DNA of 64,000 bases, taken from assembly GCF_003325455.1 (NCBI RefSeq), contig NZ_CP025198.1:1550001-1614000 (forward strand). The letters are read 5' to 3'. The stretch is from Acidipropionibacterium virtanenii (GTDB lineage Bacteria > Actinomycetota > Actinomycetes > Propionibacteriales > Propionibacteriaceae). The notes under the pieces are model-generated. The model had not been told where the DNA came from and did no database searches. It worked only from the letters and a program-made list of their open reading frames with translations. Positions 23,223 through 38,922 of the stretch are shown here, one piece after another (the first letter of the stretch is position 1; every line of letters starts with the position of its first letter). A program made the position numbers and the translations under genes.

Positions 23223-23255
23223 AAGACCCCCACCTGCTCGGCAGGTGGGGGTCTT
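23223..23255 (+). terminator. Terminator after ssrA
   Basis: Fifteen-base perfect arms (AAGACCCCCACCTGC and GCAGGTGGGGGTCTT) with a TCG loop start eight bases after the tmRNA 3' end. The right arm ends in TCTT and is followed by GTGCGTCC, so the U-run is short. Confidence 0.88.
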
Positions 23256-35762: not shown

Positions 35763-36623
35763 GTGCGGATCGACCTGCACACCCATTCCGCCGTGTCCGA
35801 CGGGACAGACTCGCCGACGGGCCTGGTGATGGCTGCCGCCGAGGCCCGCCTGCAGGTCATCGCCCTGACCGATCACGACACCTTCGACGGGCTGCCAGAA
35901 GCGATCGCGGCGGGGCAGCGGTTCGGGGTGCGGGTGCTTCCGGGCGTCGAGGTCTCATGCAATCAGGGGGGCACCGAGGTGCACCTGCTCGGCTACGGCT
36001 GCAGAGTCTCCGACGAGGCGCTGGGCGCCGAGCTGGAGCTCATTCGCAAGGGCCGCGGCGGACGGCTGGCCAGGATGGTCGCCGCCCTGCGGGAAGCCGG
36101 TCTCGACATCACCGTCGACGAGGTGCTGGCCAGGGCCGGATCGGCCCCGAGCATCGGACGCCCCCACGTCGCAGACGTCATGATCGCGAAGGGCTACGTC
36201 GCCGATCGCGACGAGGCCTTCCGCGACTGGCTCGACGAGGGCCGGCCCGGGTTCGTCCGCCGTTACTCCTGCGACCTGCCAAGGGCGGTCGATCTCATCC
36301 ACGGGGCCGGCGGCGCGGCGGTCCTGGCCCACCCGTGGGGCCGGGGGGCCGAATCCGTGCTCACCACCGACGTCATCACCGCACTGGCGCGCCGGCACGG
36401 TCTTGACGGCATCGAGGTGGATCACCAGAACCACACCGCCGAGCAGCGCTCCCTGCTGTTCGACCTGGGAGGGCGGCTCGGTCTGATCCGGACAGGATCC
36501 AGCGACTACCACGGCACCGGGAAGAAGGATCACGCACTGGGCTGCAACACCACCCGCGAGACCGCCTATCGCGAGCTGTGCATCCGGATCCAGATCCGGG
36601 GCGGCGAGCTGTACCGGGTCTGA
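35763..36623 (+). CDS. PHP-domain phosphoesterase (RNase AM/YciV-like)
   Basis: A 286-residue protein with the metal-binding blocks DLHTHSAVSDGTD (residues 4-16), ALTDHDTFDGL, GVEVSC, HLLGY, LAHPWG and SSDYHG. These match the YciV/TrpH branch of the PHP superfamily, where E. coli YciV acts as a 5'-3' exonuclease on RNA and phosphorylated nucleotides. GTG 35763 is supported by GTGGAGG upstream. An ArdC-like metallopeptidase gene follows after 11 bases. Confidence 0.88.
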   Translation: MRIDLHTHSAVSDGTDSPTGLVMAAAEARLQVIALTDHDTFDGLPEAIAAGQRFGVRVLPGVEVSCNQGGTEVHLLGYGCRVSDEALGAELELIRKGRGGRLARMVAALREAGLDITVDEVLARAGSAPSIGRPHVADVMIAKGYVADRDEAFRDWLDEGRPGFVRRYSCDLPRAVDLIHGAGGAAVLAHPWGRGAESVLTTDVITALARRHGLDGIEVDHQNHTAEQRSLLFDLGGRLGLIRTGSSDYHGTGKKDHALGCNTTRETAYRELCIRIQIRGGELYRV

Positions 36624-36634
36624 GGAGGGCTTCG

Positions 36635-37579
36635 ATGGATCTGCACGATGCGGTCGGCGCCATCGGCGGTCAGACCCGCGACACGCCGGAGCTGCCCGGC
36701 CTGGACAGCCTCTATGCGGCCGCCGCGGCGGGCCGGCCCTCCGACGAGCTGGAGGATCTGCGGGCCGTGCTGTGCCGACTGCCGATGCTCGGCCCCTACA
36801 ACGCCATGCTGGTCGAGGTGCAGCGTCCAGGAGCCCTGTACGTCGCCACCGCCTGGACCTGGCGTCACGAGTTCGGACGGCATCCGCGCCCGGGAGCCCG
36901 GCCGCTGGTCATCCTCAAACCCTTCATGCCGGTGGAATTCGTCTACGACGTCAGCGAGACCGACGGAAGGCCGCTGCCGCAGGGCGTTATGGATCCCTTC
37001 CGTGCCAGCGGGCCGGTCACCGAGGAGGGGCTGTCGGCATTCACGGGCAGGCTGCCCGACGAGGCGATCAGCTACCGGGAGACACCCTTCGGTTCGGCCC
37101 AGGCCGGCCGGACGCAGACCGTCGGGTCCTGGGATCCGGGGCGGGCGCCGCGCAAGGGCGAGATCCGATACGCGATCACGGTCAACGATTCGACGGACCC
37201 GGCGACCCGCCTGGCAACCCTCTTCCACGAGTTGGGGCACATCTACTGCGGGCACCTGGCGGGGGCCGGTGCACAGCGTCATCAGCGCCGTGCCCTCAGC
37301 CCCGAGAGCCAGGAGTTCGAGGCCGAGATCGTCTCCTGGCTGGCCTGCGGACGCCTCCGCATCGACTCCCCGTCCGGGCGCTACCTGCACGGCCACCTGC
37401 AGCCGGACGGGACGATGCCACCTGTTTCGGTGCAGGCGGTCGTTCACGCCCTGGGCAAGGTGGAGGCGATCGCGGGCGGGATGAGGTCGCTGGCAGCCAT
37501 GGTGTCGGGGCCGCCGGCGCGCGACGAGGAGGAGCCCTCCGCCCAGGAGATGCTCGATTTCGGCGCGTGGGAGCCGTGA
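36635..37579 (+). CDS. ArdC-like zinc metallopeptidase
   Basis: A 314-residue protein. The N-terminal part (LGPYNAMLVEVQRPGALYVA, RHEFGRHPRPGARPLVILKP, VEFVYDVSETDG) resembles the ssDNA-binding module of plasmid antirestriction protein ArdC. The second half has a zincin site, ATLFHELGHIYCGHL, with a downstream EFEAEIVSWLACGRL that supplies the third ligand, as in ImmA/IrrE peptidases. The C-terminus is acidic. It probably cleaves or unfolds a protein target; which one is unknown. It is on the chromosome, behind a PHP gene, with no plasmid or phage genes nearby. ATG 36635 has GGAGG upstream. Confidence 0.72.
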   Translation: MDLHDAVGAIGGQTRDTPELPGLDSLYAAAAAGRPSDELEDLRAVLCRLPMLGPYNAMLVEVQRPGALYVATAWTWRHEFGRHPRPGARPLVILKPFMPVEFVYDVSETDGRPLPQGVMDPFRASGPVTEEGLSAFTGRLPDEAISYRETPFGSAQAGRTQTVGSWDPGRAPRKGEIRYAITVNDSTDPATRLATLFHELGHIYCGHLAGAGAQRHQRRALSPESQEFEAEIVSWLACGRLRIDSPSGRYLHGHLQPDGTMPPVSVQAVVHALGKVEAIAGGMRSLAAMVSGPPARDEEEPSAQEMLDFGAWEP

Positions 37580-37614
37580 CCGCCGGGCGCGGCGGCCACC
37601 GGCGTCAGGCTTGC

Positions 37615-37724
37615 TAAGCTGTGCCCCATGACCGTCGTGCGCCCGCCCCAGCTGATCTGGTGGCGCCGTTGCGTGCGGCCCTGAACCACCCCTTCCCGTC
37701 AACGGCCGCCCTGTGGCGGCCGTT
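37615..37724 (+). promoter_or_regulatory. trpS transcription-attenuation leader
   Basis: TAAGCT (37615-37620) is a likely -10 seven bases before the leader peptide ATG. After the peptide a hairpin, AACGGCCGCC-CTGT-GGCGGCCGTT (37701-37724), resembles a terminator. Two upstream segments can pair with its left arm instead: GCGGCC at 37675-37680 with GGCCGC at 37704-37709, and GGCGCCGTT at 37662-37670 with AACGGCCGCC leaving one bulge. A ribosome stalled on the Trp codons would leave 37675-37680 free; one at the stop codon would cover it. This is the logic of a trp-type attenuator. Confidence 0.75.
37628..37684 (+). CDS. trpS leader peptide with tandem Trp codons
   Basis: An 18-codon frame, MTVVRPPQLIWWRRCVRP, with two adjacent TGG codons at 37658-37663 and a TGA at 37682. 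It starts at an ATG seven bases after a -10-like TAAGCT, so it is probably leaderless. It sits 77 bases before trpS and just ahead of a G/C-rich hairpin. It likely senses charged tRNA-Trp rather than acting as a stable peptide. Confidence 0.75.
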   Translation: MTVVRPPQLIWWRRCVRP

Positions 37725-37760
37725 CGTGCGTCGTGCGCCGCGGGGGCCTGAAAGGACACC

Positions 37761-38858
37761 ATGACTGACAACTCTCCCGAGGCCGGTGAGGGCTCCAACG
37801 AGGCCACTCTGGCTCGCTCCCAGGCGCGAAGCGACAAGGTTGAGGCCGATCTGGCCGTGCATCCGGAGAACTGGCGGATCCTCACCGGTGACCGCCCCAC
37901 CGGCAAGCTCCACATCGGTCACTACTTCGGTTCCCTGGCCAACCGGGTGAGGCTGCAGGACCGTGGCGTGGAGTCCTTCCTGGTGATCGCCGACTACCAG
38001 GTGATCTACGACCGCGACGGGGTGGGCGATATCCAGGAGAACGTCCTGTCGGGGGTGGCCGACTATCTGGCGATCGGCATCGATCCAGCCCGGAGCACGA
38101 TCTTCACCCATTCCGCCCTGCCGGGCCTCAACCAGCTGTTGCTGCCCTTCCTGTCGCTGGTCACCGACGCCGAGCTGCGCCGCAACCCGACCGTCAAGGA
38201 CGAGCTGTCCACCTCGGAACGGCCCATGTCCGGGCTGATGCTCACCTTCCCGGTGCATCAGGCCGCCGACATCCTGTTCTGCAAGGCCAACCTGGTGCCG
38301 GTCGGCAAGGACCAGCTCCCTCATATCGAGCAGACCCGGGTGATCGCTCGTCGCTTCGACGAGCGGTACGGAAGGGTGGACCCCGATCACCCCGTCTTCC
38401 CCGAGCCCGAGGCCCTGCTGTCGGCCACCCCGCACGTCCTCGGGCTGGACGGCACCAAGATGAGCAAGTCGCGCGGCAACACCATCGAGATCGGGATGAC
38501 CGCCGACCAGACCGCCAAACTCATCAAGAAGGCCAAGACCGACGCCGAGCGTCACATCAGTTACGACCCGGACGCACGCCCCGAGGTGTCGAACCTGCTA
38601 CTGCTCACGGGGCTGTGCGAGGGCTCGGATCCGGAGACGGTCGCCGAGGAGATCGGCGACGGCGGGTCGGGGACTCTCAAGAAGAGACTCACCGCGTCGA
38701 TGAACGACTACTTCGCCCCGATCCGGGCGAAGCGGGCGGAGCTGGCCGCCGACGAAGGGTACCTGCGTTCCGTGCTGCGCGAAGGCAACGGGCGCGCCGG
38801 GGCGGTGGCCGACCGGACTCTCGACGAGGTCCGGCGCGCCATGAAGATGGTCTACTGA
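37761..38858 (+). CDS. trpS: Tryptophan--tRNA ligase
   Basis: A 365-residue class I synthetase. The HIGH motif appears as GKLHIGHYFGSL near residue 48, and KMSKS in LDGTKMSKSRGNTIEIG. Length is slightly above the usual 330-340 because of a charged N-terminal extension of about 35 residues. The ATG follows GAAAGGACACC. It is preceded by an attenuation leader, and its last four codons are repeated just downstream. Confidence 0.96.
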   Translation: MTDNSPEAGEGSNEATLARSQARSDKVEADLAVHPENWRILTGDRPTGKLHIGHYFGSLANRVRLQDRGVESFLVIADYQVIYDRDGVGDIQENVLSGVADYLAIGIDPARSTIFTHSALPGLNQLLLPFLSLVTDAELRRNPTVKDELSTSERPMSGLMLTFPVHQAADILFCKANLVPVGKDQLPHIEQTRVIARRFDERYGRVDPDHPVFPEPEALLSATPHVLGLDGTKMSKSRGNTIEIGMTADQTAKLIKKAKTDAERHISYDPDARPEVSNLLLLTGLCEGSDPETVAEEIGDGGSGTLKKRLTASMNDYFAPIRAKRAELAADEGYLRSVLREGNGRAGAVADRTLDEVRRAMKMVY

Positions 38859-38886: not shown

Positions 38887-38922
38887 ACGACGCCCCGGAA
38901 CCACGAGGTTCCGGGGCGTCGT
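38887..38922. terminator. Bidirectional terminator between trpS and the DEAD-box gene
   Basis: Sixteen-base perfect arms (ACGACGCCCCGGAACC and GGTTCCGGGGCGTCGT) with an ACGA loop lie between convergent stop codons. The plus-strand side is followed by TCATGCGG, so the U-run is poor. Confidence 0.85.

Follow-up and report, generated by a model that had tools for sequence, protein, structure and literature searches.

A candidate Trp-codon leader upstream of trpS in Acidipropionibacterium virtanenii and related Actinobacteria

The trpS locus and its upstream region

The 64-kb stretch of DNA analysed here (the window) belongs to a 3.43-Mb genome present as a single contig. It carries the only TrpRS gene found in that genome; the second PF00579 gene is tyrS. 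This trpS shares 94% identity with that of another member of the genus and about 85-87% with those of Cutibacterium species and 'Acidipropionibacterium timonense'. In window coordinates, the region comprises the following features:

36578-37579: IrrE-like (IrrE/M78-like) metallopeptidase gene (PF06114), placed between a PHP-domain gene and trpS
37612-37620, + strand: extended -10 promoter element (TGC-TAAGCT), read from the sequence; relatives have TGnTAnnnT at the equivalent site
37628-37684, + strand: leader ORF MTVVRPPQLIWWRRCVRP, predicted to be leaderless, identified from the sequence and from WW-bearing counterparts in relatives
37658-37663, + strand: tandem Trp codons TGG TGG (putative sensor), identified from the sequence and from WW enrichment in relatives
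37664-37672, + strand: segment 1, capable of a weak 1:2 pairing with segment 2 and resembling segment 4
37675-37680, + strand: segment 2, GCGGCC, putative left side of the antiterminator, pairing with 37704-37709; an A-U/G-C pair covaries among 15 leaders
37701-37710, + strand: segment 3, putative left arm of the terminator and right side of the antiterminator, assigned by pairing energies and covariation
37715-37724, + strand: segment 4, putative right arm of the terminator, with a tail lacking a U-run, assigned by pairing energies and covariation
37750-37756, + strand: trpS Shine-Dalgarno sequence GAAAGGA, outside the hairpin and not sequestered
37761-38858, + strand: trpS, tryptophan--tRNA ligase (TIGR00233, above cut-off)

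In several relatives, a PHP-like coding sequence apparently ends directly 5' of the trpS leader.

Upstream of trpS, the extended -10 (TGCTAAGCT) ends 7 nt 5' of the ATG at 37628, from which we predict that transcription starts on this ATG or no more than about 1 nt away from it. The ORF that begins there has 18 codons and stops with TGA at 37682-37684. Three leaderless-like short ORFs occur on the two strands of the window, and WW is found in the leader ORF only. Further 3', a perfect 10-bp hairpin (AACGGCCGCC-CTGT-GGCGGCCGTT, 37701-37724) is followed by the tail CGTGCGTC; when the intergenic region was shuffled 2000 times with dinucleotides preserved, perfect stems of at least 10 bp arose in four cases. 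The tail has no U-run of the kind that marks a classical intrinsic terminator; such a run is typical of classical attenuators and was not counted as defining in Actinobacteria. An earlier note on this DNA had described, between a likely -10 and trpS, a nearly leaderless 18-codon frame with adjacent TGG codons and a ten-pair hairpin behind it, read as a terminator without a U-run, and each of these elements is indeed present.

Perfect hairpins without U-runs are also found directly after the tmRNA (15 bp, 23223-23255) and just behind trpS (16 bp, 38887-38922), the former having the tail GTGCGTC in common with the leader hairpin. In the window, hairpins of this kind seem to be common at gene ends. 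An Rfam scan of the window returned tmRNA and tRNA only, no family matching the leader; a T-box riboswitch was rejected as a candidate, the scan having given no match to the T-box covariance model. We also sought a WW leader before trpE of the same genome and found none, trpE lying immediately downstream of a hisI-like gene.

The left arm of the hairpin has two alternative partners, namely GCGGCC (37675-37680) and, with one bulge, GGCGCCGTT just after the Trp codons. As duplexes, each alternative pairing yields -13.6 kcal/mol vs. -20.0 kcal/mol for the hairpin. A stalled ribosome covers about 12 nt past the first base of its A site. With the ribosome at the Trp codons segment 2 would be barely free, and with the ribosome at the stop codon, which starts 2 nt after the final base of segment 2, it would be masked; GCGGCC is therefore the likely antiterminator. 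This geometry, in which a stall at the Trp codons exposes segment 2 and a ribosome at the stop codon covers it, is that of an attenuator, the footprint being taken from general knowledge. We set GGCGCCGTT aside as a working antiterminator, since it would lie under a ribosome stalled at the Trp codons. Thus, both partners proposed in the earlier note can pair with the left arm, and GCGGCC is the likelier of the two to fill the role. The antiterminator, at -11.5 kcal/mol, is weaker than the terminator, at about -20 kcal/mol, and so would have to win kinetically.

Conservation and covariation among relatives

In 152 distinct trpS upstream regions of relatives, we identified 43 leaderless short ORFs, and 42 of these contain Trp codons (34 WW, eight a single W, one none). 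The remainder of the same loci served as control and yielded 27 such ORFs, none with WW (0/27). The 43 leaders include some whose records overlap or stem from close relatives, which limits the independence of the counts; the contrast is nevertheless very large. A short leader ORF with cognate (Trp) codons, as expected of an attenuator, is thus conserved. Same-genus leaders are MTDAPSPQLFWWRRCVRP, MDPAPAPRCCWWRRCARP and MVPVPAPQLSWWRRCTRP, and that of Cutibacterium avidum is MTIAPANATSWWRRCVRH; the motifs in these two genera are WWRRCVRP, WWRRCARP, WWRRCTRP, WWRRTVRP and WWRR[CSW]VRH. WW leaders upstream of trpS are also present in other Propionibacteriaceae and in Georgenia, Ornithinimicrobium and Micropruina (e.g. 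MKQTGWWRS in Propioniciclava, MTPVRSWWPSTRRP in Ornithinimicrobium, VPTSLRSWWPSTRRA in Georgenia and MHQPNSWWPSA in Micropruina). Many Propionibacteriaceae, such as Tessaracoccus, have no such leader before trpS. A congener represented by a MAG (G003, locus L086) has neither leader nor hairpin, yet keeps the ribosome-binding site of trpS and a promoter-like TTGGTAGAGT; the locus resembles a natural deletion of the attenuator, though an assembly fault may be the cause.

All leaders found have a gap of 6-9 nt between the end of the -10 and the start codon. Behind the Trp codons the segments follow in the order 2 (GCGGCC in the genus, GACGGCC or GGCGGC elsewhere), 3 (GGCCGC, GGCCGTC or GCCGCC) and 4. 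Counted from the last Trp codon, the core of segment 2 starts at 15 nt in most leaders and at 14 nt in four, and this distance is the same for leaders with one and with two Trp codons.

For the covariation analysis, the segments were anchored by a script and a cleaner subset of leaders was used for the alignment. Cognate pairings were compared with permuted ones in 22 representatives, giving p=5e-5 for 3:4, p=0.001 for 2:3 and p=0.005 for 1:2, relatedness being not fully removed from these values. In an alignment of 15 sequences, 94.7% of the cells in 3:4 and 97.8% of those in 2:3 are paired, vs. at most 68% and 58%, respectively, in slid registers. Double changes between lineages include a G-C to A-U exchange in the antiterminator. 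Antiterminator and terminator are hence mutually exclusive and conserved, with covariation in both 2:3 and 3:4, as expected for an attenuator. The earlier note had named the alignment of related genera and a covariation analysis as checks, and loss of the Trp codons or hairpins in close relatives as a refutation. Such a loss was not the outcome: WW and both pairings are kept in related genera, and covariation from lineage to lineage is seen in the terminator as well as in the antiterminator.

From these leaders we built a covariance model, R1, without any Streptomyces sequence. In the genome under study it scores 65.7 bits at the trpS leader, and the next-best site, a hairpin just past an apparent gene end, reaches 25.3 bits; genome-wide uniqueness of the leader is judged by this model. 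Among 197 genomes of the family, R1 gave 35 matches at E<=0.001. Of these, 31 immediately precede trpS, a divergent trpS in one case, and one precedes trpB; the other three are an antisense copy of a true match and two noise hits. In one member of the Propionibacteriaceae, a WW leader of the same architecture, MDNVTRCWWPA, precedes an apparent trpB (L224, G023:C1:533444). The strongest matches in 396 genomes of the phylum include six Streptomyces-like leaders, e.g. MTTRTCTQLWWAA, upstream of a divergent, auxiliary trpS, and two leaders were found upstream of apparent trpE. We infer that the genomes with MTTRTCTQLWWAA-type leaders are Streptomyces, the leader being like trpL2 of S. lividans. 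We discarded weak R1 matches that fell within coding sequence or on ordinary hairpins at gene ends.

A variant arrangement was found in Cutibacterium-like genomes. Eight of these keep the leader and segment 2, with the 3:4 hairpin down to about six pairs; in one leader Cys-Trp takes the place of Trp-Trp. In another Cutibacterium-like genome, that of locus L096, the leader Trp codons are lost. A second hairpin, with about 9-13 pairs (e.g. CCTCGTCGCC...GGCGGCGAGG; loci L003, L004, L005, L006, L007, L090, L092, L095 and L096) ends directly at the Shine-Dalgarno sequence AAGGA, and it occurs in a shorter form in one genome without leader Trp codons. Pairing is also possible between the right arm of 3:4 and the left arm of this second hairpin.

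Proposed mechanism and alternative readings

We propose that the leader is very probably a ribosome-mediated transcription attenuator that sets the level of trpS according to the charging of tRNA-Trp. Control of trpS by attenuation, as the earlier note had suggested, is supported by comparison of sequences, because the Trp codons and their spacing to the antiterminator are conserved and the competing pairings covary. RNA polymerase would begin transcription at the leader ATG or immediately beside it; a ribosome would load on the leaderless mRNA and trail the polymerase. If charged tRNA-Trp is available, the ribosome would reach the stop codon and cover segment 2, the 10-bp terminator 3:4 would form and most transcripts would stop before trpS. 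Under a shortage of charged tRNA-Trp, the ribosome would stall at the Trp codons and cover segment 1, leaving segment 2 free; 2:3 could then form as the left arm emerges, 3:4 would be blocked and trpS would be transcribed. The comparative evidence covers the leader, its Trp codons, the spacing, the competing pairings and the link to Trp genes; the leaderless start, the stalling of the ribosome, termination at the hairpin and the direction of the response to starvation are what we infer beyond it.

A weak point of the terminator reading is the missing U-run, termination by such actinobacterial hairpins being disputed. Mycobacteria are reported to use U-less 'I-shaped' terminators, for which Ahmad 2020 is cited in favour and Czyz 2014 in opposition (PMC12288462). 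The same Trp codons might therefore act through Rho-dependent termination, or through a hairpin that merely pauses the polymerase, a stalled ribosome shielding or refolding the leader against Rho. The hairpin without a U-run would fit this, as would a C-rich stretch lying between the leader stop codon and the hairpin and the role of Rho as the dominant terminator in mycobacteria (PMC12288462). However, the 3:4 hairpin, in whose conservation compensatory changes are seen, adjoins TTT or TTTT, a partial U-run, in many relatives, and the U-less hairpins behind the tmRNA and trpS make this a locally common form. We consider termination by Rho, or mere pausing, rather unlikely.

Alternative folds could instead govern access to the trpS ribosome-binding site, i.e. 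attenuation might be translational. What speaks for this comes from Cutibacterium, where the 3:4 hairpin is reduced and the strong, conserved second hairpin abuts the Shine-Dalgarno sequence. In the window, on the other hand, GAAAGGA lies 25 nt 3' of the hairpin, and in the states examined it is for the most part unpaired or only very weakly folded. That the hairpin does not hold the Shine-Dalgarno sequence argues for transcription as the controlled step, and we regard translational control at this locus as very improbable. For Cutibacterium itself, the arrangement suggests a possible shift towards translational control of trpS. As a tentative possibility, a single Trp-codon sensor may have different outputs in the two sister genera. 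Acidipropionibacterium would employ a U-less transcription terminator and Cutibacterium a relay in which 2:3 would free 4, 4 would pair with 5 and 6 would be freed, the last hairpin abutting the trpS Shine-Dalgarno sequence and control having moved from transcription to translation. A chance short ORF next to an ordinary hairpin, without regulatory role, is hardly credible, for although high G+C makes GC-rich stems common, it would leave the Trp-codon enrichment, the spacing, the covariation and the near-uniqueness in the genome to coincidence.

The leader offers a clean setting for the question whether U-less hairpins terminate transcription in Actinobacteria. Its spacing rule and covarying arms make up a usable model for annotating such leaders.

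Comparison with known attenuators

Ribosome-mediated attenuation has reportedly been described for trpRS1 of Streptomyces coelicolor by Vecchione and Sello in 2010. The gene there reportedly encodes an auxiliary, antibiotic-resistant TrpRS, whereas the leader described here precedes the sole TrpRS gene. In E. coli, the pheST attenuator likewise places a synthetase gene under leader-peptide attenuation; it differs in its Phe codons, its canonical U-run terminator and its Shine-Dalgarno-led leader.

The pheST case is named by Seliverstov et al. (2005, PMC1262725), who also predicted trpS attenuators in some Streptomyces, including trpS2 of S. avermitilis. RNA-seq of S. lividans (2021) placed a leaderless trpL2 before trpS, without a uridine-rich stretch (PMC8079986). 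These Streptomyces systems resemble ours in having a leaderless or near-leaderless Trp leader, competing hairpins and trpS downstream, and the hairpin of trpL2 also does without a U-rich tract; leader peptide and arm sequences are unlike those found here. The attenuators of the trp operons of Corynebacterium and Streptomyces share the tandem UGG codons, the complementary triple gGCC-rGCy-GGCC and the same 2:3 / 3:4 switch, but control biosynthesis genes and have poly-U tracts (PMC1262725). The earlier note had regarded attenuation of trpS, a leaderless leader and a hairpin without U-run as worth describing for their novelty; all three are on record in Streptomyces (PMC1262725, PMC8079986; Vecchione & Sello 2010 as cited), and this part of its proposal does not stand.

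Among the papers searched, we found no report of a trpS attenuator in the Propionibacteriaceae. What is new is the lineage, the placement on the genome's only TrpRS gene, where an attenuator can feed back directly on an essential enzyme, and, in Cutibacterium, what looks like a drift to a hairpin that borders the ribosome-binding site. The Streptomyces-type trpS attenuator would thus extend to the Propionibacteriaceae and some other actinobacterial genera.
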